DNA from: Deltaproteobacteria bacterium RIFOXYA12_FULL_61_11
GTDB lineage: Bacteria > Bdellovibrionota_F > JAHFAK01 > YA12-FULL-61-11
NCBI GenBank assembly: GCA_001799195.1
Contig: MGSU01000002.1
Coordinates: forward strand, 23,273-34,669
DNA length: 11,397 nt
Direction of reading: 5' to 3'
The notes beneath the pieces were generated by a model, which worked only from the letters and a program-made list of their open reading frames with translations, searched no databases and was not told the origin of the DNA. The position numbers and the translations under genes are program-made. Shown in pieces: positions 3 to 11,397 of this stretch; within the stretch, counting starts at the first letter, position 1, and each line of letters begins with the position of its first letter.

Positions 3-2963
3 GACTTACTGGAAAGGAATTTCCCGCTTCAGGTCGAACGCTCTTTGCGATACCGGGCCAGGCTCGAGGGCACGAACTCACTGCCTGAGCTGCTCTCTCT
101 GCTCGGGACCGAGCTCGGGGAAGGCCGATTGCGTTGGGATGCCCGGGGTTGGCATCTCGGGGAAGATCGGCTGGAGAGCCTCAGTGCGGGCGGGGACGAA
201 CACAGGATAGAGAACGGTGCAGGTCCGGCCCATGAAGACGACGGTTCCGGGTACCTCGCGGAGTGCCTCGCGTTGCTCGGGGGCGAAGACGCCGAGGCTA
301 CGGTGCCCTTCCTCCTGGGACGTCTGTTCCAGCGCGGCCTGTATGAGGTTCTCGAACGTTGTTGTGCGCTCGTGTCGGCGAGGAGCCATGAGGACAGGTG
401 TACGGCCTTTGCGACGCTCTACCTTGCCAGAACGGCCGCGGTCCGCGGGCAGGACCAGGCCGCGGAGGAACTGCTGCAGGCTCTTCCGAGGGAGGCAGGG
501 GAAGAACTGGAGCTGGAGAGGGCTATTGTCGCCGCGACCCTGGCGGGCCGGAAAGGGGATTTCGACCGGGCTGAGCACCTCCTCCTCGAGAACTTGCACC
601 ACCCCGGCAGGGACCGGTATCCCCATGCTCTCTCGAATACGCTGCTCAATGTCGGTATCATCCGGGCCAAGCGTGGGGAATACGATAAAGCCCTGGCGTG
701 TTATTACGATGCCCTCGAACTGAAACGCCGGCATGCAGATCCTTCCGGTGTGGTGTCCCTCTACAGCAACCTGGGGGCCTGTCATCACCTGAGGGGAGAT
801 GCCGAGGCGGCCCTCGTCCACTACCGAAGGGCGGCTGCCGAGGCCCAGCGCATTGGCGATCTCAAGAGCTATGCCATCGCGAGCTTCAATCAAGGCGACC
901 TCCTGTTGGATCGGGGGGAATTGAACGAGGCCGGCACCGTCTTGAAAGCGGCCGGGAGCATGGCGGAGCGCCTGGGTCTCGAGCCCGTGGCAGAGAGGGC
1001 CGCTCTGAACCTGTGCTTTCTCGAGGCGCTTTCCGGAACACCTCAAGGCGAGGCGCTGCGGCGGCTCGGGGAAGCGGAGACAACCGCTCGAGCCCGCGGG
1101 CATGTAGAACAGGAACTCTTGGCCATCGTACTCCAGGGCAAAACGTTGCAAGCTCACGGTAACCTTGGGGCCGCGGTCGCAGACTATCGCCGGGCCTTGC
1201 GTCGGGCCTTGGAAATACGGCATAGCCGGCTCATCCGGGAAATCGATCGGTTGCTCTCCGACGCCGAACGCGCCGCGGCAACCGCTGCAGCACCGGAGGT
1301 ACCCGGGGAACCTTCCGGGGGGGGTGTTCCGAGCAAAGCAGTGACGCTCGACGGAGCTGAAGCGTCCGATGGTCTCCTGCTGGTCTGGAACTCCTCGAGA
1401 GTCCTGAGGGAAACTCAGCCCGAGCCCGAACGTCTCCGAGACCTCTTGGGATATTTCACCGAGGTGCTTGGGTTTGCCCGGGCGGCCTATGTCGTTCGGG
1501 AGGCAGCCGGGCAATGGACCGGCCTCGGTCTCGGGTACGACGGTGGCCAGATCCTGGAGCTCGGACAAAAATTGCCGCTCGAGGGGTTGCTGCGGCCCGG
1601 TCCCTATCCTCGTTTGGTGGGCAACCTGGAACTGCTCGAGGGTTTGACGGAGGAGGTCGACGGTTCGCGGTTCGGCCTGAAAACGGTCCTCGTGGCGTGG
1701 TTCCCCGCTCTGCTGCCTCGTGGTTTGTATCTGGATCACCGTTTCCTCGCCCCGGCGGGTTTCCTCACCCCGGCGAAACGAGCTCTGCTCGAGTCCGTGC
1801 TGGGACTTCTGACCCAAGGCTGGACCGGACCGGGGGGGCTTCCTCCCTCCCCAGGGAACAGAGAGGCCCTTGTCCAGCCACCGCAGTCTTCCCGTGAAAG
1901 GACCGTCGCCTTGCTCTCGCGCAGTATCACCTTTTCCCTGACCGACCGGGTGCTGGGACGAGAGCCGCAGAGGATTGGGCAGCTCGGGTACCTGGTGGGG
2001 ACCTCTCGTCCACTGGAGGACCTCTATCGCCGGATGGAACAAGTGGCGCCGACCGATGTCCCGGTGCTACTGCTCGGCGAGAGCGGGGTGGGCAAAGAAG
2101 TTGTGGCCAGGGGACTGCATGACCTGAGCGGCCGCCGCGACCATTCCCTGGTGATCCAGAACTGCGCGGCCATTCCAGAAGCACTGGCCGAGAGCATCCT
2201 GTTCGGTCACGTCAAGGGTGCCTTCACCGGTGCGCACGAGGACCGGGCAGGCGTCCTGGCCGAGGCGGATCGCGGAACCCTCTTCCTCGACGAGGTCGGA
2301 GAGCTGCCCTTGCCGTTGCAGGCGACCCTCTTGCGCGTGTTGCAGGATCGACGGGTCCGTCCGGTGGGGGGGCAAGGTGAGAGGGCGGTCGATTTCCGGC
2401 TCTTGGCCGCGACCAATCGACCGTTGCGGGACTTGGTCGAGGGCGGCACCTTCCGCGAGGACCTCTATTTCCGTTTGCAGGTGGTGGTCTTGCGTGTGCC
2501 TCCCCTGCGGGAACGCCGCGAGGACATTCCCTTGTTGGTGGAGTACTTCAATACCACCGAGAGCCAGGCCCTGGGGCTGAAGGCCTTGACCTTTTCCACC
2601 GGCGCGATGGAAGTTCTGCTCGGCCACCCTTGGCCGGGCAATGTCCGGGAGTTGAAAAACGTTATCAACCGGTTGTTGGTGTTTTCTCAGGGGGCTCGCG
2701 TCGATGCCGAACAAGTCGGGCGACAATTCGAATGCGACCGCCCCCCCCGGGAGACGGCCATGCGCGAGGCGAGCGGTCCGTTGCGTCAGTACTTACAGAG
2801 GAAGGAACGTGCATATATCGAGCAGACCCTCGAACAGACCCAGGGCAATGTGACCGTGGCCGCGGAACGCCTGGGCATGTCGAGGGTGAATCTCTACGGG
2901 AGATTACGAGCGCTGGGTCTACCGCTGCCTGAACGGGGAGGGAGGGGCAAGAAGGATCGGTGA
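3..2963 (+). CDS. sigma-54-dependent transcriptional regulator, STAND/TPR-GAF-AAA+-Fis mosaic (5' partial)
   Basis: This is an enhancer-binding protein that would use ATP hydrolysis to open sigma-54 RNA polymerase promoters. The visible 986 codons are open to the left edge; a TTG at 45 could start, but the frame reads through it, so I take the gene as 5'-truncated. The first ~60 residues resemble the end of an AAA_16/STAND NTPase module seen in kinase-STAND-TPR regulators (inference). TPR-like helices follow at about 630-1260, then a GAF-like sensor region at about 1360-1810. The AAA+ domain (about 1986-2690) has Walker A GESGVGKE (2076-2099), an intact GAFTGA sigma-54 contact loop (2217-2234), Walker B LFLDE (2280-2294), the REDLYFRL segment and NVRELKN. 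A Fis-type helix-turn-helix (about 2844-2918) ends the protein. There is no receiver domain in the visible part. Four G/C runs of 7-8 nt lie in the gene. It converges with the sulfotransferase gene. Confidence 0.93.
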   Translation, partial: DLLERNFPLQVERSLRYRARLEGTNSLPELLSLLGTELGEGRLRWDARGWHLGEDRLESLSAGGDEHRIENGAGPAHEDDGSGYLAECLALLGGEDAEATVPFLLGRLFQRGLYEVLERCCALVSARSHEDRCTAFATLYLARTAAVRGQDQAAEELLQALPREAGEELELERAIVAATLAGRKGDFDRAEHLLLENLHHPGRDRYPHALSNTLLNVGIIRAKRGEYDKALACYYDALELKRRHADPSGVVSLYSNLGACHHLRGDAEAALVHYRRAAAEAQRIGDLKSYAIASFNQGDLLLDRGELNEAGTVLKAAGSMAERLGLEPVAERAALNLCFLEALSGTPQGEALRRLGEAETTARARGHVEQELLAIVLQGKTLQAHGNLGAAVADYRRALRRALEIRHSRLIREIDRLLSDAERAAATAAAPEVPGEPSGGGVPSKAVTLDGAEASDGLLLVWNSSRVLRETQPEPERLRDLLGYFTEVLGFARAAYVVREAAGQWTGLGLGYDGGQILELGQKLPLEGLLRPGPYPRLVGNLELLEGLTEEVDGSRFGLKTVLVAWFPALLPRGLYLDHRFLAPAGFLTPAKRALLESVLGLLTQGWTGPGGLPPSPGNREALVQPPQSSRERTVALLSRSITFSLTDRVLGREPQRIGQLGYLVGTSRPLEDLYRRMEQVAPTDVPVLLLGESGVGKEVVARGLHDLSGRRDHSLVIQNCAAIPEALAESILFGHVKGAFTGAHEDRAGVLAEADRGTLFLDEVGELPLPLQATLLRVLQDRRVRPVGGQGERAVDFRLLAATNRPLRDLVEGGTFREDLYFRLQVVVLRVPPLRERREDIPLLVEYFNTTESQALGLKALTFSTGAMEVLLGHPWPGNVRELKNVINRLLVFSQGARVDAEQVGRQFECDRPPRETAMREASGPLRQYLQRKERAYIEQTLEQTQGNVTVAAERLGMSRVNLYGRLRALGLPLPERGGRGKKDR

Positions 2964-2996: not shown

Positions 2997-4055
2997 TCAG
3001 CACCAGGTCAGGAGGGGAAAATCCTTGCCGCTCGCCGTGAAGGCGGTACGTACGCGTTCCATGGCTTCCTCACAGGCTTCGGGGGCGAGCAAGGGGGTCC
3101 CCGTCGCCGGTGGGGCATGGAACTCGCTCGCGCGATGGCCGGTGCCGCGGCCTGCTGCGGTGCGCCGAACCAGGTCCGTGTAGGCCGAGCCGTAAGGCAC
3201 GACCTCGAGGGAACCCGTGAGAGGCAGAGATTTTGCGATGGCGAGATGGTAGGCCTCCCACAGGGCGAGATGCCTTTGGGCGTAGGAGAGCTCCTTCCAG
3301 GGTTCCTGTTCCATGCCCAGGTAACGGTGAGTCACGTCGAACCAGTAGGTCGGGGTATCGGCACCCTCGGGTACGGTTATTGGTAGTCCGAGCATCTTCA
3401 GGATCGAGCGCAGGGATGTCTCGGGATGGCGCACGCTGAGCACATAGCTCGCGTTCCCGCCGAAGAGGGCTTCGATGAGGGGGAGAGCGTAAGCGAGGGA
3501 GATGTTCTTCTTCACCACGAACGGTCCCTGGGTTTTCTTCACCCAGACGAGGAACTGAGCAAGCTCGAAGAGGAGGTTCAGCCAGCGCGAGGGGTGGCCT
3601 GCATAGACTAGGGGCTCGCGGCTGGGGACGTCATCGTGGAGCATGGGCAGGGAGTGGGTGGACCACTCGATGCCGTTGGCCGCGGCCAGCTCGGTGAGCA
3701 GGTAGGTGCCGCCGGTCCGGGCGAAACCCAGGACGAACACAATGCGACGTTCTTCGCCGAGAAATGAGCGGAGCCAGGCAGCATCTCCGCGGAGGAGGCC
3801 GACGAAGACCGTGGCCGCTTCATCCAAGAAGGAGCGGAGTTCCTTCGAGAGTGCTAGGTCGCCTCCCAGCTTGGTAAGGACTTCCCGCTTGCGCTCTTCG
3901 AGTCGTTCCGGCGCCCCCGACTGACGATCGGCGGTGTGCCCGGTCAACCCGCGAGCCGCCCATTGCAGCGAGGGTTCGACACCTCCGACGTGCCAGACCG
4001 TGGCTTCGTGGATAGGCAAGTGGAGCTCGTTCCAATGGATGGTGTAGGTCGCCAT
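2997..4055 (-). CDS. sulfotransferase-like protein
   Basis: A putative PAPS-dependent sulfotransferase of 352 aa, likely cytoplasmic, with no signal peptide. After an N-terminal region of about 100 residues with no family I recognise, a hydrophobic beta strand leads into GFARTGGTYL (residues 110-119). This fits the 5'-phosphosulfate-binding loop in the RSGTT/RTGGT style of the Sulfotransfer_3 group. A second motif, VRHPETSLRS (residues 208-217), sits where the 3'-phosphate-binding Arg/Ser (R209, S214) are expected. The ATG at 4055 is preferred over a longer open frame to 4307 because GAGG lies 8 nt upstream and the extension is Pro-rich and unlike a protein start. Acceptor substrate is unknown. 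It stands alone: convergent with the regulator and divergent from a small secreted protein gene. It could instead be a sulfotransferase-fold protein with another role. Confidence 0.75.
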   Translation of the reverse strand: MATYTIHWNELHLPIHEATVWHVGGVEPSLQWAARGLTGHTADRQSGAPERLEERKREVLTKLGGDLALSKELRSFLDEAATVFVGLLRGDAAWLRSFLGEERRIVFVLGFARTGGTYLLTELAAANGIEWSTHSLPMLHDDVPSREPLVYAGHPSRWLNLLFELAQFLVWVKKTQGPFVVKKNISLAYALPLIEALFGGNASYVLSVRHPETSLRSILKMLGLPITVPEGADTPTYWFDVTHRYLGMEQEPWKELSYAQRHLALWEAYHLAIAKSLPLTGSLEVVPYGSAYTDLVRRTAAGRGTGHRASEFHAPPATGTPLLAPEACEEAMERVRTAFTASGKDFPLLTWC

Positions 4056-4174
4056 GGGCAGGACCTCGAAGAGTAACCCCGGATGCTTGCTACCACGGAG
4101 CCGTCGAGCGGGCAATGAGAATGGCCGGGAACACCACCCCACCTTTGCACGTTTGGATAGACCATGCGGGAAGT

Positions 4175-4212
4175 TCCCATCCTCCACAAGATGGCGCTGC
4201 CCTGGGATGGGA
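4175..4212. promoter_or_regulatory. 8-bp inverted repeat in divergent promoter region
   Basis: TCCCATCC (4175-4182) and GGATGGGA (4205-4212) are perfect inverted copies separated by 22 bp, about 30 bp centre to centre, or roughly three helical turns. An overlapping shorter palindrome GGGAAGTTCCC sits at 4168-4178. The repeat lies about 90-127 bp upstream of the sigma-54-like element at 4302, a usual distance for an enhancer-binding-protein site. It is also upstream of the divergent sulfotransferase gene. Binding of any regulator is inference. Confidence 0.35.
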
Positions 4213-4301
4213 GGGTCGCAGTGCGGAGGAGGTGGAACGCCTCGCAAGGGTGCAGAGTGAGGCATGAGTGTTTCATTCCAAGGTGATATGGCACAGCTTT
4301 C

Positions 4302-4317
4302 TGGCATGGTCCTTGAT
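4302..4317 (+). promoter_or_regulatory. sigma-54-like -24/-12 promoter element
   Basis: TGGCATGGTCCTTGAT matches the consensus TGGCACRNNNNTTGCW at 10 of 12 defined positions with exact GG-to-G spacing. The two mismatches are T at the last base of the -24 box and, more seriously, A in place of the conserved -12 C. A start site about 12 nt downstream would give a leader of about 25 nt containing the GGAGG at 4343-4347. I see no convincing sigma-70 alternative. Confidence 0.4.
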
Positions 4318-4731: not shown

Positions 4732-6114
4732 TTACCTCACCATGGCTTCTTCGTACGGCGTGAAGCCGGGGACGCGGCCGGAGCGATGTCGCCGGGGTTT
4801 GTGGAACTCGGGGCTGTCGGTGATCAGGCGCAAGAGGTTGTCCCTGCTCTGCGGTTCCGCCAGATGGGCAATGGCCACGGCCCGCTCGCCGATGCTCAAC
4901 CGCTGCGGGTCGAAGATGCCGTATTCGCTGACCAGGACGACCCGGTCCGAGGGCGTGGCGGTGGTGGTGATACCGGCCGGGGCCTTGTCCACGATCTTGG
5001 AGATGCCGGTCGCCGTGGTCGCCTTCAGCGCGATGATCGCCACTCCGCCGGGGGAGTATTGCACGCCGCGCAAGAAATCGCTCTGGCCGCCGACCCCACT
5101 GTAAATACTGCGAGCGGCCAGGGAATCGGCCCACACGTTGCCGTGCAGGTCCACGCCGATGGCGCTGTTGATGGCCACCATATTGGGCTGTTCCGCGATC
5201 TTGAACACGCTGTTCGTGTAATCGCAGGGGCGGCTCTGGACCGAACTGTTGAGATTGAACCAGGCGTAGCCCGCCGTATCCTCCGCCAGGAAGATCGAGG
5301 AGACCGAGAAATTGATCCCCCGTTTCCAGCGGTTCGAGACGCATCCTGCCTGCACCAGGCGGATCATGCCGCTGGAGAATAACTCGGTGTGAATGCCGAG
5401 GTCTCGGAAGCCGCGAGCCACGATCGCCTCGGTTACGGCCTCGGGCACTTCGCCGATACCAAATTGCAAGGTAGAGCCGGGGACCGTGCCGGAGCCGTCG
5501 TGGAGGAAGGTCGATGCGATCTGGGTGCCGATGCGACGGGCAGCCTCGTCGGGGCGGTGGACGGGAGTTGCGGGCAGAGGGTAGGAGGTGTCGACCAGGT
5601 AGTCGATCGCGGACTCGGGAATGGTGGTGCCCAGAATGAAGGGCATCGTGGCGTTCCGTTCGGCGATGACCACGCCGCCTCGTTGTTTCACAACGTGAAT
5701 CGCCGCGAGCACGGCCTCGACCGTGGTGCCGAGGCTGTAGTTGCCGCCGTTGTCCGGTCCTGCGACGGAAATCAAGGCGGCATCGAGTCCTCGGCTCCGA
5801 GCAAGGTTTGCCGGTACTTGGGACAGGTGCATGGGGTGGTACTTGGCCCAGCCCCTATTGACAGCTTGGCGGGTGAGATGACTGGCGAAGATGACCCGGT
5901 GGGTGATGCGTCGACAGGTCGCTTCGGAGAACAGGGGCTCGAGGCCTTCGCCGAGGAGGAGGATCCCGAACAGGTCGAGGCGTTTGAGAGAGGTGTCCTC
6001 GGCCAAGCGGCGCAACAGGACAGCCGGGGTGGCGGCGTTGCCGGTCGTATAGACCACGCTTCCTGGTCGGAGGACACGAGGATTGATGGCTTGGTCGACA
6101 CTGACTCGCTGCAT
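4732..6114 (-). CDS. acetyl-CoA hydrolase/transferase family protein (4-hydroxybutyrate-type CoA-transferase)
   Basis: A cytoplasmic class I CoA-transferase of 460 aa, moving CoA between an acyl-CoA (often acetyl-CoA) and a carboxylate through a glutamyl-CoA thioester. The family signature is full length: LQFGIGEVPEAV (216-227); GIHTEL (240-245), whose E244 aligns with the catalytic glutamate of AbfT-type enzymes; the Gly-rich CoA loop GVGGQSDFLRG (340-350); and SEYGI (396-400) followed by the usual GERA...LAEP segment. Length is normal to slightly long for the family. Whether the acceptor is 4-hydroxybutyrate, another short acid or water cannot be read from sequence. The ATG at 6114 begins the family N-terminus, but only a weak GAG precedes it. 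The gene stands apart, with 292 bp upstream and no pathway partners in view. Confidence 0.88.
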   Translation of the reverse strand: MQRVSVDQAINPRVLRPGSVVYTTGNAATPAVLLRRLAEDTSLKRLDLFGILLLGEGLEPLFSEATCRRITHRVIFASHLTRQAVNRGWAKYHPMHLSQVPANLARSRGLDAALISVAGPDNGGNYSLGTTVEAVLAAIHVVKQRGGVVIAERNATMPFILGTTIPESAIDYLVDTSYPLPATPVHRPDEAARRIGTQIASTFLHDGSGTVPGSTLQFGIGEVPEAVTEAIVARGFRDLGIHTELFSSGMIRLVQAGCVSNRWKRGINFSVSSIFLAEDTAGYAWFNLNSSVQSRPCDYTNSVFKIAEQPNMVAINSAIGVDLHGNVWADSLAARSIYSGVGGQSDFLRGVQYSPGGVAIIALKATTATGISKIVDKAPAGITTTATPSDRVVLVSEYGIFDPQRLSIGERAVAIAHLAEPQSRDNLLRLITDSPEFHKPRRHRSGRVPGFTPYEEAMVR

Positions 6115-6406: not shown

Positions 6407-7267
6407 TCAACCGCGCCGGCGCAGGGCGACCAGCCCGACCAAGGTGGTCAGGAGGAGCAGGGCAAGACTGCCGCTCTGGGCGTTGGTGTTGACCACGCCG
6501 CAGCTACCACCCTCGCCGCCGCTGACCGGTTGGGTGGTCGGACGGACGGGCTCGGAGGTCGGAGGTGCAACCACGACCGGTTCTTCGACGATCACGATCG
6601 GCTCTTCTTCCAAGTCGTCGAGATCGAGCGGCTCGGTCGGGATGATCGGCTCTTCGATGATGATGACCGGTTCGTCCTCGAGGTCTTCGAGGTCGAGCGG
6701 TTCGGTCGGGACCACGGGCTCTTCCTCGAAGCCCCACTCTTCCTCGGTGTCCCACTCTTCCTCTTCTTCTTCGCCGTAGAATTCCTCGTAGCCATCTTCG
6801 TCGTAGAACTCGCGGTACTCATCATCATAGTAGAAGTCCCAGGCATCGTCCTCGATCCAGGTCATGTAGGGCATGCGGATTGCCATCAGACATTCGTTGG
6901 TGCGCGTGGTGGTAGTATAACTGTCGCAATCTTCGAGCAACCAGGGATCGAAACTGTGATTGGCCACGATGGCGAGGCAGGTCATGGTTTCGGTCGCGGC
7001 GCTGTAACGGGAACAGACCGCGATGGCACCCTCTTCATAATATTCGTCGGCGACCAGGTCCAGACATTCCACGGTGAGCGCGGCGTCCACGAACCGATCG
7101 CATTCGTTGACTGCGGCCTGGTTGAAGTAGCGGCCGACGATGACGCTGTAGCACTCCGTGCGGAGGGAGTAGCTGTTGATTCGGTCGCAGGCGCCCTTGG
7201 GGGAAATTGCCCAGGCGCTGCTCGCGCACAAGGCTGCGAAGAGAATGGTACAGACGAGTGTCTTCAT
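6407..7267 (-). CDS. secreted C-x11-C repeat protein with acidic region and MYXO-CTERM-like C-terminus
   Basis: A 286-aa exported protein not recognised as a named family. Residues 1-20 are a Sec signal peptide ending AWA. Residues 27-142 are four repeats of exactly 29 residues, each with cysteines 12 apart: C27/C39, C56/C68, C85/C97, C114/C126. Residues 139-232 are strongly acidic (a run of six Glu, many Asp/Tyr/Phe) and include two copies of a 23-residue EEP..PTEPLDL unit. A Pro/Thr/Gly linker leads to S255-C256-G257, a hydrophobic stretch at about 266-281 and RRRG at the end, the layout of MYXO-CTERM/GlyGly-CTERM-type sorting signals. The ATG at 7267 is chosen for the signal peptide and the GGAGG about 8 nt upstream; a longer frame to 7351 is rejected. 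A sigma-54 promoter candidate lies upstream. Likely surface-anchored by inference. Confidence 0.85.
   Translation of the reverse strand: MKTLVCTILFAALCASSAWAISPKGACDRINSYSLRTECYSVIVGRYFNQAAVNECDRFVDAALTVECLDLVADEYYEEGAIAVCSRYSAATETMTCLAIVANHSFDPWLLEDCDSYTTTTRTNECLMAIRMPYMTWIEDDAWDFYYDDEYREFYDEDGYEEFYGEEEEEEWDTEEEWGFEEEPVVPTEPLDLEDLEDEPVIIIEEPIIPTEPLDLDDLEEEPIVIVEEPVVVAPPTSEPVRPTTQPVSGGEGGSCGVVNTNAQSGSLALLLLTTLVGLVALRRRG
6587..6724 (-). repeat. two tandem 23-residue acidic repeats
   Basis: Residues 182-204 and 205-227 of the secreted repeat protein are near-identical units (EEP-[VI][VI]-PTEPLDL-x-DLE-x-EP), with a third partial copy EEPVV after them. In DNA this is two diverged 69-bp copies. 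The alternating Pro/acidic/Val-Ile pattern suggests an extended, negatively charged stalk between the folded repeat domain and the membrane anchor. Confidence 0.85.
6842..7189 (-). repeat. four tandem 29-residue C-x11-C repeats
   Basis: Units start at C27, C56, C85 and C114 of the secreted protein, with no insertion or deletion in the cysteine spacing. Shared features are C-[DS]-[RS] at the start, [ET]-C-[LY] at the second cysteine, and a hydrophobic [IVL]-[VA] stretch just after it. Exact spacing suggests one disulfide per unit in a short helical or hairpin repeat. Confidence 0.9.
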
Positions 7268-7368
7268 GGAATACTCCTCCTTTTCTATGTTCACTGTTCT
7301 TCCAGTTACCACCGTGGATCGTGCTGTGGGGGCCACACCTGTGGCGACCACCCGTGGCCATGGCTTTG

Positions 7369-7491: not shown

Positions 7492-8748
7492 TCACGCTTG
7501 CCAGACTGCGACTTGATACCCGGCTCGCTGGATGGTGGCTTCGAGCAGAGCCCGATCCAGGTTCTTGCCGTGTACCTCGACCCGGCCGGACGTGAGTTCG
7601 ATATCGACCTCCTGGATACCGGGCAGGGAGCCGACCTGCTGCCGGAGGTTCGCGACGCAGCGGTGGCAACTCATCCCGGTAACGGTGAGAACGAGTCTCT
7701 CGTTCGAGGGAGCGAGGAGCGAACTGCTCCTAGGAAAACGCACCCTGCGCAAGATTCTCAGACCGAGCAGATAGACCAGGAGTGCGAGGAGGAGCAGAGC
7801 GGAGAGGAGTGAGAGGAAGCCGGAGTGGTGGAGCCCTTGGTGGAGGTGCTGGACCTCGTTCGCTCGGGGGAGGATCCAATCGAAAGCAATTCCCAGAAGC
7901 AGACTCATGCCGGCCACGGTGCCGAGATAGATGGCGAGGATGCGTGGGCCGAGGACGCGACCGATGATGCCGAGGGTGGCGATATTGGTCGCAGGACCGG
8001 CCATGAGGAACACCAAGGCTGTGCCGGTGGGGAGGCCGGCGGCGACCAAAGCCGCTGCGATGGGCACCGAACTGGTGGTACAGACATAGAGGGGAATGGA
8101 GAGCAGCAGCACCAGGAGGAGGCCCGTGGGACCAGTTGCCCAGGTTGTTCCTGCCAGGAGCTGAGGTGGGAGCAGGGTGGTGATCGCCGCTGCCGCCAAT
8201 ACCCCGCCCAATAGCCAGAGGTCGATGGCTGCTAAGATATCGAACAGGGCATACCGCAGGGCTTCGAGCAGCTTTGGTATGCCACGGGAGTGGCTGCTGA
8301 CAGGAGGTAGTGGGCAGGACACTGGCAACTCCTGCGTCGAGTTGCCGCCGAACCGCTCGGCGAGCAGGCCGCCGAGCAGGCCCGTGACAAAGGCGGCGAA
8401 GACCTTGAACAAGGCGAAAGGCCAACCGAGGAAGGAAGCCGAGACCAGGATCGAATCCACGCCGGTCTGCGGGGTACTGATGAGGAAGCCTATCGCCGCT
8501 CCCCGCGAGGCCCCGGCGTTGCGCAGCCCCATGGCGGTGGGAACGACCCCGCAAGAGCAAAGGGGCATCGGAATACCCAACAGTACGGCGCGTAGGATGC
8601 TCGGCAATCCCGGACGGGAAAGGTTGGCCCTGATCAGGCTCGGCGGCAGGAGGACGTGAAGGAGTCCTGCCAGGAACAAACCGAGGAGCATCGGAGGGGC
8701 GAGTTCGAGCATGATACTCCAGGTGTTGAGTGCGTAGGCTTGCAGCAT
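7492..8748 (-). CDS. SO_0444/DUF318-type metal efflux permease with C-terminal HMA domain
   Basis: A 418-aa inner-membrane permease with about eight to ten hydrophobic segments in two halves. Half 1 carries PMPLCSCGVVP (60-70), with C64 and C66. Half 2 carries YVCTTSSVP (221-229) followed by ALVFLMAGPATN (244-255). This paired cysteine arrangement is typical of the SO_0444 Cu/Zn efflux group and related DUF318/ArsP permeases. A His-rich segment (H301, H303, H307, H308) precedes the last membrane segment. Residues about 352-416 form an HMA ferredoxin-like domain with GMSCHRC (358-364), a CxxC soft-metal site that could pass metal to the pore. The ATG at 8748 is preferred over an in-frame TTG at 8778 because GGAG/AGGG lies upstream. 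Substrate (Cu, Zn or another soft metal, perhaps As) is not decided. No metal regulator is adjacent. Confidence 0.87.
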   Translation of the reverse strand: MLQAYALNTWSIMLELAPPMLLGLFLAGLLHVLLPPSLIRANLSRPGLPSILRAVLLGIPMPLCSCGVVPTAMGLRNAGASRGAAIGFLISTPQTGVDSILVSASFLGWPFALFKVFAAFVTGLLGGLLAERFGGNSTQELPVSCPLPPVSSHSRGIPKLLEALRYALFDILAAIDLWLLGGVLAAAAITTLLPPQLLAGTTWATGPTGLLLVLLLSIPLYVCTTSSVPIAAALVAAGLPTGTALVFLMAGPATNIATLGIIGRVLGPRILAIYLGTVAGMSLLLGIAFDWILPRANEVQHLHQGLHHSGFLSLLSALLLLALLVYLLGLRILRRVRFPRSSSLLAPSNERLVLTVTGMSCHRCVANLRQQVGSLPGIQEVDIELTSGRVEVHGKNLDRALLEATIQRAGYQVAVWQA

Positions 8749-8948
8749 GGGTCGCCCTCTCCAGTGGTCGAGGGTCAACCATGGATAGTTGATCGGGGGG
8801 TGTCAAGGAGCAAGGGCGCAACCGGGTACTCGAGCACCGCGGAGGATCGGAGCAAACGCCTGCTGCTTGATCCTTCTCGTCCGCTGTGGCACTCTTCCCA
8901 GTCCAGGCCCTGTCATGGGAACAACCACGGTCATTGAGGAGACCAGTA

Positions 8949-11397
8949 ATGAAGCTTTTTTTCCTCCTTCCGCTCCTCGCGCTCTCGGCCTGTCAGTTGC
9001 CGGGAACCGAGACGACAACCCCTGTGCAACCCCAAGCCCCCTCGGGCTATGCCCAGCCCTTCGTCTTCGACGGAGAACCGGTGCGTTTCGCCGTGGACGA
9101 GGAGTGCTTCGATGAATGCAGAACGCATATCAATATCAGTGGATTGAGAACACAGGCCAATCTGGACTGTTCCCAATACGAAGAATACACCCCTCCCCAG
9201 ATGGTCGCCTGCGCGAACGACACCTACAATGCCCTCTATGATGGAGAGATCGAGGCTTGCCGTCACGAATGTAACCTTCCCGACGACAACGACGGTGGGA
9301 CGACCGGCGGCGGTGGGACGACCGGCGGCGGGACGACCGGCGGCGGTTGTGGCGTGGGCACTGTGGTCGGTTGTCTCTATTACAGTTGCACCATGAAGCT
9401 CGACGTTTTCTCCGGTGGTCAGCGCTGCATCGTGGCCGGTTTCTGTGACGAAGGGTATCCGAACACGGACCCATGTAATCGCGGTACCGAGGACGACGAT
9501 GACGACAATGCCGATGACGGTGAGGACGACAACGGCGGGAACGGCGATGATGGAAATGACGACGGCGGGAACGATAACGGCGGAAACGACGGTGACGGGG
9601 ACGACGATGGCGAAGACCCTCCGGCACCGATCCCGAACCCCTGCGCTGCTTACATCGGTCCTGGGACCGGCGAAGGCAACGGTCCGATCGACTTGGCGGG
9701 CAAGGGTTCCATCCAGTGCCAGAGTGGGTTCGTCCTCGGGGACACGCTCTATCAAGGCTACTGGCGCAGTAACGAAGGTTGGTCCAGGACCGTGCCGCTC
9801 CGCGATTGCCGACCGCAGTGGGCCGAAGCCTCGGTCTGGGCAGGCCCGATAGCGGTCGACGATCTACCGGGCAGCGGCGACATGCAAGCCCAGAGCGGGT
9901 ATGTGATCGGCCAGACCCTGCACCAGGGTTTCTGGCGGGGTAACAAGGGGTATGTGCGAGAGGTCCCCGTGGTCAATGGGGCGCCGGGTTGGGCTCAGGC
10001 TAAAGCTTGGTCCGCTCCTATCGAACTCGACGGTCTGCCCGGGACCGGCGAGGTGGAGAGCCTGACCGCCTATGTCCTCGGTACGACCCTGCACCAGGGG
10101 ATGTGGAGAGGAGGCCTTGGCTATATGAGGACCGTGCCGATCGTCGAGGGCGTGGTTACCTGGGCCGAAGCCTCGGTCTGGGGCGAACCGCTCCAACCCG
10201 ACAGCGTCATCGGTGTCGGCCAGATGCAATCCCAGAACGCCTTCCCCATCGGAGGTACCTTGCACCAGGGGTTCTGGCGCGGTGACCAGGGCTGGTACCG
10301 CACCGTGCCGATCGTCGCCGGGGTGGTCACGTGGACCGACGCCGGCTATTGGCACGGACCTATGACCTACGGTGGCGAGGAGACCCCGCCGGGGCTGCCC
10401 ACCTGCCTGACCGGTCTCGAATGCAGCGGAGATGCAGGTCTCGACGGGTACCTGCATCATTGCCTTGACGGTGATGGAAGCGAGAAGTTCTGTTGTGCCT
10501 TCGACAAGGTGCTCAACGAGGCTGACACGGCCTGCGTGGTTCCGGTCACCCTGCCGCTCTGTCCCGTGGGGCTAGCGTGTTCGGCCAATGCCGCACTCGC
10601 GGGTCAACAACACCACTGCGCGACTGCCGAGGGTGCAGAGCGTTTCTGTTGCGCCACGGGCATGGACCTCAATGAGGCCGGAACCGCTTGTATCGCCCCG
10701 CCGATCCTGCCGGACTGTCCGGGTGGCGTGCAATGCACGACGAACGTCGCTCTGCAGGCCCCGGCGTACCATTGTCTCAACGCCGCCGAACAGGAAGTCT
10801 ACTGCTGTGCCCTGGGCAAGGTCCTCGATGGCCTGACCTGCGTCGTGCCCTTGCCAAGCGCCGGTCTTGCCGGTAGCGGGACCATGCGTTCCCAGGACGG
10901 TTTCGTTCTCGGCACCACCCTGTACCAAGGGTATTGGCGTGGTACCCAGGGCTGGTCGCGCACCGTACCGATCGTCTCCGGTACCCCGAATTGGAACGGG
11001 GCCACGGCCTGGTCGGGCCCGATAGCCCTCACCGCGCTCGCCGGCACGGGCGATATCCAGAGCCAAGCAGCGTATGTCCTCGGCGGCAAGGTCTACCAGG
11101 GCTATTGGCGGGGCAACCAGGGGGATACCCGAGAGGTCCCGATCGTGAACAACGCGCCCGACTGGGCTCACGCGACTGCCTGGGCCGGTCCCATCGCCAT
11201 CACCGCCCTGCCCGGGAGCGGGGACATGCAAGCTCAGGCCTCGTATATACTGGGGGCCTCCTTGCAACAGAGTTACTGGCGCGGCGGGAAGGGGTATTAT
11301 CGCAGCGTGCCCATTGTCGACGGTGTGGTGAAATGGGCCGACGCCGGAGCCTGGTCCGCACCGCTCGAACTCACCACCCTGCCCGGCGCGGGCGAGA
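8949..11397 (+). CDS. large modular repeat lipoprotein (3' partial)
   Basis: The frame is open to the right edge (816 codons visible). Residues 1-15 are a lipoprotein signal peptide with lipobox LSAC and lipidated C15; +2 is Gln, compatible with outer-membrane sorting. GAGGAG lies 7 nt before the ATG. Domain order: N-terminal six-cysteine segment with twin CX3C (C53/C57, C104/C108, plus C74 and C88); Gly/Thr linker (114-133); second Cys-rich patch (C134-C176); Asp/Asn/Gly linker (181-222); four 57-residue repeats (249-476); three six-cysteine modules (486-631); three more 57-residue repeats (640-810); start of an eighth at 811. The 57-residue unit has LG-x4-QG[YF]WRG, then R-x-VP, then W-x2-A-x2-W. 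Four short beta strands per unit would suit a beta-propeller, but this is inference and I know no matching family. Likely a cell-surface binding protein. Confidence 0.88.
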   Translation, partial: MKLFFLLPLLALSACQLPGTETTTPVQPQAPSGYAQPFVFDGEPVRFAVDEECFDECRTHINISGLRTQANLDCSQYEEYTPPQMVACANDTYNALYDGEIEACRHECNLPDDNDGGTTGGGGTTGGGTTGGGCGVGTVVGCLYYSCTMKLDVFSGGQRCIVAGFCDEGYPNTDPCNRGTEDDDDDNADDGEDDNGGNGDDGNDDGGNDNGGNDGDGDDDGEDPPAPIPNPCAAYIGPGTGEGNGPIDLAGKGSIQCQSGFVLGDTLYQGYWRSNEGWSRTVPLRDCRPQWAEASVWAGPIAVDDLPGSGDMQAQSGYVIGQTLHQGFWRGNKGYVREVPVVNGAPGWAQAKAWSAPIELDGLPGTGEVESLTAYVLGTTLHQGMWRGGLGYMRTVPIVEGVVTWAEASVWGEPLQPDSVIGVGQMQSQNAFPIGGTLHQGFWRGDQGWYRTVPIVAGVVTWTDAGYWHGPMTYGGEETPPGLPTCLTGLECSGDAGLDGYLHHCLDGDGSEKFCCAFDKVLNEADTACVVPVTLPLCPVGLACSANAALAGQQHHCATAEGAERFCCATGMDLNEAGTACIAPPILPDCPGGVQCTTNVALQAPAYHCLNAAEQEVYCCALGKVLDGLTCVVPLPSAGLAGSGTMRSQDGFVLGTTLYQGYWRGTQGWSRTVPIVSGTPNWNGATAWSGPIALTALAGTGDIQSQAAYVLGGKVYQGYWRGNQGDTREVPIVNNAPDWAHATAWAGPIAITALPGSGDMQAQASYILGASLQQSYWRGGKGYYRSVPIVDGVVKWADAGAWSAPLELTTLPGAGE
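9297..9344 (+). repeat. three 15-bp repeats encoding a Gly-Thr-Thr-Gly linker
   Basis: GGGACGACCGGCGGC occurs three times (9297, 9315, 9330), the first two separated by GGT. They encode the Gly/Thr-rich linker after the first Cys-rich domain of the lipoprotein. Perfect short tandem copies like these can vary in number by slippage. Confidence 0.85.
9489..9614 (+). repeat. Asp/Asn/Gly low-complexity linker
   Basis: Residues 181-222 of the lipoprotein are almost entirely Asp, Asn, Gly and Glu, built from repeats of GAC/GAT/AAC/GGC codons. This is probably an extended acidic spacer, perhaps Ca2+-binding, between the N-terminal domains and the 57-residue repeats. It does not match the RTX nonapeptide spacing. 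Confidence 0.8.
9693..10376 (+). repeat. first block of four 57-residue (171-bp) repeats
   Basis: Units begin at L249, L306, L363 and V420 of the lipoprotein, with no length change between units. Shared positions include G at 3 and 5, LG or IG near 15-16, QG-x-WR at 21-25, VP at 34-35, W at 43, A at 46, W at 49 and P at 52. The first unit alone carries two cysteines (C257, C287). Confidence 0.93.
10404..10841 (+). repeat. three tandem six-cysteine modules
   Basis: Modules begin at C486, C538 and C590, spaced exactly 52 residues. Each follows C-x5-C-x12-C-x9-CC-x12-C; the last is shortened to x10 before the final cysteine. Hydrophobic/Pro linkers join them. The invariant pattern implies three disulfides per module. 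The array sits between two blocks of 57-residue repeats. Confidence 0.93.
10866..11397 (+). repeat. second block of 57-residue repeats, running off the window
   Basis: Units begin at L640, L697 and L754, and an eighth begins at L811 just before the edge. Period and key residues are the same as in the first block. Unit 5 is closest to unit 1 by eye (33 of 57 identical); unit 6 shares REVP with unit 2, and unit 7 shares GVV-x-W with units 3 and 4. Confidence 0.93.

Follow-up and report, generated by a model that had tools for sequence, protein, structure and literature searches.

A family of 29-residue C-x11-C repeats in secreted proteins, mainly of Bdellovibrionota, with a member that carries a MYXO-CTERM-like tail

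The window (the whole stretch of DNA analysed here, 11,397 nucleotides) contains at 6407..7267 of the minus strand a gene for a 286-residue secreted repeat protein with a C-terminal anchor tail. Profile and pairwise comparisons identify its cysteine repeat as a true homologue of an unnamed family of secreted proteins, occurring mainly in Bdellovibrionota. This repeat family, referred to below as CX11C, is absent from Pfam, NCBIfam and PHROGs, and its sequences are common among the secreted proteins of Bdellovibrio-like bacteria. We consider it about 70% probable that the protein is exported by Sec and consists of a disulfide-stapled, four-hairpin solenoid head on a stalk, anchored at the surface by a Cys-TM-Arg tail and likely serving as a binding module. 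Of this reading, the exact repeat, the kinship with the family, the prediction of a helical-hairpin fold and the occurrence of the tail type in the genome are shown.

The Bdellovibrionales are a group known for predators, and to our knowledge their secreted proteins are largely uncharacterised. A literature search found nothing that ties CX11C or cysteine-rich disulfide repeats to Bdellovibrio.

Gene layout and cysteine lattice

The ORF list starts the gene at an upstream GTG, and the ATG at 7267 is the better start because a Shine-Dalgarno sequence, AGGAGG, is read directly from the sequence before it at 7276..7281 (minus strand, as for all features of this gene). The putative signal peptide MKTLVCTILFAALCASSAWA (residues 1-20, 7208..7267) is assigned from its composition and an A-W-A cleavage motif, and lacks a lipobox. 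Four repeat units follow, defined by the translation and the cysteine lattice and each forming an alpha-hairpin in the AlphaFold2 model: unit 1 (residues 27-55, Cys 27 and 39, 7103..7189), unit 2 (residues 56-84, Cys 56 and 68, 7016..7102), unit 3 (residues 85-113, Cys 85 and 97, 6929..7015) and unit 4 (residues 114-142, Cys 114 and 126, 6842..6928), the final residues of the last being modelled with low confidence. The repeats are followed by an acidic, Pro-rich, low-complexity stalk (Glu/Asp/Pro-rich, residues 143-250, 6518..6841), which holds a 23-residue duplication encoded by a 69-bp tandem repeat at 6576-6724, and by the Cys-TM-Arg sorting tail SCGVVNTNAQSGSLALLLLTTLVGLVALRRRG (residues 252-286, with Cys 256, 6410..6514). 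The layout supports the first-pass annotation, which had read the coupling of the repeat to an acidic stalk and to a Cys-TM-Arg sorting tail as the architecture expected for a displayed domain.

The translated protein has cysteines at positions 6, 14, 27, 39, 56, 68, 85, 97, 114, 126 and 256. The eight in the head fall exactly at 27+29n and 39+29n, giving a C-x11-C-x16 unit with a period of 29 and an offset of 12, and nucleotides 6842-7189 correspond exactly to residues 142 to 27, the four units. For eight cysteines in 122 residues, this exact lattice accounts for 23 of ∼9.6e11 placements (a chance of 2.4e-11), and a two-per-unit lattice of any period has a chance of 2.4e-8. Non-cysteine identities at offset 29 number 16 compared with 5.5 expected (p ∼1e-4), so the repeat goes beyond the cysteines. 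The lattice count and the translation thus bear out the exact 29-residue repeat with eight periodic cysteines that had been noticed at first reading.

Homologues and a look-alike with the same spacing

A genome collection with one genome per species (84,980 species) was scanned for a DNA pattern that fixes just the eight cysteine codons at this spacing. Among the matches listed, the open frames are of three kinds: arrays of thrombospondin type 3 (TSP3) repeats, many low-complexity cysteine runs, and one true relative, the six-unit protein L013 from a Bdellovibrionales MAG (contig SXUH01000362.1). BLASTP aligns the window protein with L013 without gaps over 106 residues at 33% identity (E 2e-15). 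An HMM built from the relatives only, with the window protein left out, scores that protein at 92.5 bits, compared with maxima of 43 bits for shuffles with fixed cysteines (n=3000) and 77 bits for shuffles that also preserve residue class (n=3000), and the homology to the family therefore goes beyond the cysteines. With its cysteines replaced by X, the window protein still scores 27 bits.

Most of the non-repetitive open frames among the matches listed are arrays of the type CPTVPGVAKYDGCPIPDTDKDGINDEEDK, assigned by Pfam to the thrombospondin type 3 repeats. Arrays with identical spacing occur in OmpA-like proteins at L008, L012, L018, L031, L034, L035 and other loci, and have no homology to the window protein. 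The C-x11-C-x16 spacing of these OmpA-like TSP_3 repeats, being the same as in the window protein, could suggest that the head is a calcium-binding TSP3 array, but the window units lack DxDxDG motifs, the window protein has no TSP_3 (PF02412) match, the TSP3 arrays score below zero with the relatives-only HMM (-2.0 and -1.4 bits), and the predicted model of the head is helical. We reject this assignment as almost certainly wrong; on the sequence comparison, TSP3 is unrelated and shares its cysteine spacing with the window protein by coincidence. Contrary to the initial impression that no repeat family has such a period and spacing, two do, the CX11C family by descent and TSP3 by coincidence. 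Cysteine spacing alone cannot tell them apart, which makes it a trap for spacing-based searches.

A two-sequence profile finds the family in 56 of the 290 sampled genomes of the phylum to which the L013 genome belongs, phyla being named here from record titles. A larger profile of 23 sequences (A3), seeded mostly from that phylum and with the window protein among its sequences, finds it in 83 of the same 290 (∼29%) and in 4 of the 195 genomes of a Corallococcus-centred phylum, with matches there down to E 6e-16. None of the 398 genomes of a Legionella-centred phylum has a match, a zero that could in part reflect bias, since A3 is seeded mostly from the phylum of L013. In the window's own phylum (two genomes), A3 finds no member besides the window protein itself. 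A query with a single sequence, run against 58 other genomes from across the domain, finds no homologue, and none is found in 19 assorted genomes. Exact five-cysteine pattern matches elsewhere in the window's genome are not recovered by sequence or profile searches. In viral contigs, the eight-cysteine DNA pattern matches only low-complexity or out-of-frame stretches, and a peptide-pattern scan gives no relative.

The consensus of the family unit is A-L-x-V-C-x-R-[ILF]-S-[FY]-x-S-[DE]-[KR]-[LI]-x-C-L-x-A-[IV]-[AG]-[ND]-K-x-[YF]. The spacing within pairs is 11 in 117 of the 159 pairs counted (12-13 in some), and between pairs it is mostly 16 (77) or 17 (18). The window protein has the family pattern of tandem C-x11-C (11-13 allowed) with x16 (16-17) between units. 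Nearly all relatives start with an N-terminal signal-like hydrophobic stretch, and the window protein also has an export signal. Proteins of the L013 type share with the window protein the 29-residue unit, the C-x11-C-x16 spacing and the signal peptide. They differ in having arrays of three to six units (two arrays in some), and in lacking the acidic stalk and the Cys-TM-Arg tail, often having a different C-terminal helical region instead. The first-pass annotation had asked whether hits to the repeat share C-terminal sorting tails, and none of the relatives examined has one.

Two further loci carry paralogous genes. At L336:6018-8226 (G270), two CX11C-repeat genes lie within a cell-wall and cell-division cluster, between a murC-like Mur ligase gene and ftsQ/ftsA. 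At L333:3935-9177 (G116), tandem paralogous secreted repeat proteins have a common N-terminal motif (EATKVFDYEK), and several of them have degenerate CX9-11C units.

Predicted fold and disulfide pairing

The AlphaFold2 model of residues 21-143, built with three aligned sequences (pLDDT 89.2, pTM 0.79), has eight helices that form four alpha-hairpins, one per unit (helix A of ∼7 residues and helix B of ∼11), with the final residues unstructured. The corresponding model of L013 has six hairpins (pLDDT 79, pTM 0.68). Foldseek finds nothing at E < 0.3 in the PDB, hence nothing significant, and nothing significant among viral models; sequence searches of the PDB also return nothing significant. In VIA-align, helical repeats designed de novo head the list (Z up to 7.6), a result that by the tool's own yardstick may reflect just a common arrangement. 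No solved natural relative was seen, and the modelled head may still adopt a known natural solenoid fold (TPR, HEAT, ankyrin or others).

Since a hydrophobic signal stands at the N-terminus of nearly all relatives, the cysteines are expected to lie in an oxidising compartment. One disulfide per hairpin, linking the two cysteines of the C-x11-C within a unit (C1 and C2), is favoured. With an HMM of the unit that is blind to cysteine, both cysteines are present in 130 of 131 units, the remaining unit having the second only, and the arrays consist of complete rather than half units, which argues for pairing within units. Such pairing is also favoured by the pattern of loss, in which C1 and C2 of one unit are missing together, and never C2 with the next C1: L262 and L263 contain seven gaps of 46-48 residues, each holding a whole unit that lacks both cysteines, and the degenerate relatives have no gap that matches the loss of C2 and the next C1. 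These missing-pair cases are few, all in four related proteins, three of which belong to one locus. In the related proteins of L262 and L263, C-x13-C units alternate with units that lack both cysteines.

The same helical solenoid could instead be linked between neighbours, C2 to the next C1 (C-x16-C), as a covalent ladder that leaves a single unpaired cysteine at either end. For SEL1-type repeats of Helicobacter, covalent bonds from motif to motif are described (PMC2581425), and in the AlphaFold2 model, helix limits read naively as antiparallel place C2 nearer to the next C1 than to its own C1, with helices H13-23 and H30-37 bringing model Cys19 and Cys36 roughly opposite each other. We regard this arrangement as unlikely and retain it because of these helix limits; against it, the first C1 and the last C2, which would be orphans, are nearly always kept in the arrays, and pairs are lost as C1 and C2 of one unit. 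With the favoured pairing inside each unit, a disulfide-stapled hairpin of 29 residues would make a repeat module of very small size, fit for use outside the cell and perhaps as a scaffold on which to design binders.

Surface display, proposed role and known systems

The tail of the window protein (residues 252-286) has the layout of MYXO-CTERM, with an invariant Cys, a TM helix and an Arg-rich end, and scores 14.0 bits with the NCBIfam MYXO-CTERM model TIGR03901, below its cut-off of 20 bits. The same genome has ten further candidate tails (L278-L287), one of which is over the cut-off (22 bits) and nine under; eight of the ten visibly consist of a Cys, a hydrophobic stretch and a terminal Arg cluster. 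These sequences suggest that the lineage, which is poorly sampled (its phylum is represented by two genomes), has a sorting system of the MYXO-CTERM kind. For the MYXO-CTERM proteins of Myxococcus, lipidation at the Cys is predicted; they are cleaved by the myxosortase MrtX (NF040593), and their surface display needs type II secretion (PMC11980579). The window protein resembles them in its signal peptide and its C-terminal Cys, TM helix and Arg cluster, and differs from MYXO-CTERM proper in scoring below the model cut-off; by analogy, it is probably lipidated, cleaved and displayed through type II secretion in the same way. Among the relatives examined, the window protein alone combines CX11C repeats with a MYXO-CTERM-like tail.

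In the proposed mechanism, the protein would be exported via Sec, and its head would form a rigid solenoid in which four short alpha-hairpins of 29 residues follow one another, the two cysteines within each hairpin being joined by a stapling disulfide. The acidic, Pro-rich stalk would hold the head off the membrane, while the C-terminal tail would be lipidated at Cys256 and cleaved after it, with type II secretion carrying the protein to the outer surface. The solenoid, withstanding the extracellular milieu, would most likely bind a protein or glycan on its surface, or act as a spacer. We infer the formation and topology of the disulfides, the surface location and the binding function; a stable extracellular helical-repeat module on a stalk, for binding, is the most likely role.

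The neighbouring gene on the same strand (7492-8778, minus) encodes a Cu/Zn efflux transporter of the SO_0444 family (NCBIfam NF033936, 310 bits, cut-off 300), which ends in a copper-chaperone-like HMA domain. It raises the idea that the repeat protein binds metal as a partner of the transporter, using its thiols to chelate extracellular copper or zinc. This is improbable: a 224-bp gap separates the two genes, no such transporter is apparent among the listed neighbours of the relatives, the units lack a CxxC motif, a pair of cysteines 12 residues apart suggests a disulfide where the compartment is oxidising, and whole cysteine pairs are dispensable (L262/L263). The neighbourhoods of the relatives differ and have no conserved neighbour, most neighbours being judged by N-terminal sequence only.

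Other genes in the window encode a regulator with TPR repeats, a sigma-54 activator domain and a Fis-type HTH (3-2963, plus strand, its N-terminus lying beyond the window), a weakly sulfotransferase-like protein (2997-4307, minus; Sulfotransfer_3 20.4 bits, cut-off 27), and a CoA-transferase of the acetyl-CoA hydrolase family (4732-6114, minus) that scores far under all named-subfamily cut-offs (156 vs 675 bits for butyryl-CoA:acetate CoA-transferase). The gene at 8946-11397 (plus) encodes a large putative lipoprotein (MKLFFLLPLLALSACQLPG), without a Pfam or NCBIfam match, that contains two repeat types, one of ∼60 residues with the motif QGYWRG...VPIV...W and the other Cys-rich, with CPxGxxC...HHC...FCCA...C.

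No family in Pfam, NCBIfam or PHROG covers the repeat in the window protein or its relatives, and the first-pass view that it matches no known cysteine repeat family, such as Sel1-like, stands for Pfam and NCBIfam. DUF6184 (PF19682) is rejected, as the window protein scores 15.9 bits (E 0.015), under the 25-bit cut-off. DUF4476 (PF14771) does not match the window protein. One relative, L254, passes its cut-off (24.6 vs 22.5 bits) and also exceeds that of PAN_1 (30.4 bits), but both matches rest on its repeated YSYASDK motif, and most members do not share them. DUF4476 resembles CX11C in its period of ∼29-31 and a similar F-S-F-x-S-x-K hairpin motif, and differs in lacking the conserved Cys pair; hhalign of DUF4476 against a subset of the family gives an in-register alignment that scores barely above shuffles (13.15 vs a maximum of 12.61). 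Kinship with DUF4476, as far as these alignments go, is a lead only.

A bolder proposal is that CX11C repeats form a natural alpha-solenoid class of their own (a 29-residue hairpin with one internal disulfide per unit, and no solved relative), which would provide predators and related bacteria with a stable scaffold for recognition outside the cell and would be coupled in the window's lineage to a MYXO-CTERM-like anchor. We hold this as a speculative possibility, with the odds against it.

Disulfide-bridged alpha-helical repeats are an already known kind, and the CX11C family itself is without an entry in Pfam, NCBIfam or PHROGs. The Helicobacter cysteine-rich proteins (Hcp) are secreted and consist of disulfide-bridged alpha/alpha repeats (PMC2581425), as is proposed for the window protein with its putative disulfides. 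Their unit is of the SEL1/TPR type and has 36 residues; membership in Sel1-like/Hcp is rejected, as Sel1 matches neither the window protein, at E up to 1, nor the relatives, and the unit is 29 rather than ∼36 residues long. The repeat region of Helicobacter CagY is composed of alpha-helical, cysteine-rich modules with a 38-39-residue A motif (PMC2581425). No CagY Pfam family matches the window protein at E up to 1 or any relative, and the unit length differs (29 vs 38-39), so that CagY membership is also rejected. CagY resembles the window protein in its tandem alpha-helical modules with regular cysteines and its extracellular location, with disulfides that stabilise it (PMC2581425), and differs in that its A motif is Lys/Glu-rich and forms part of a type IV secretion machine.
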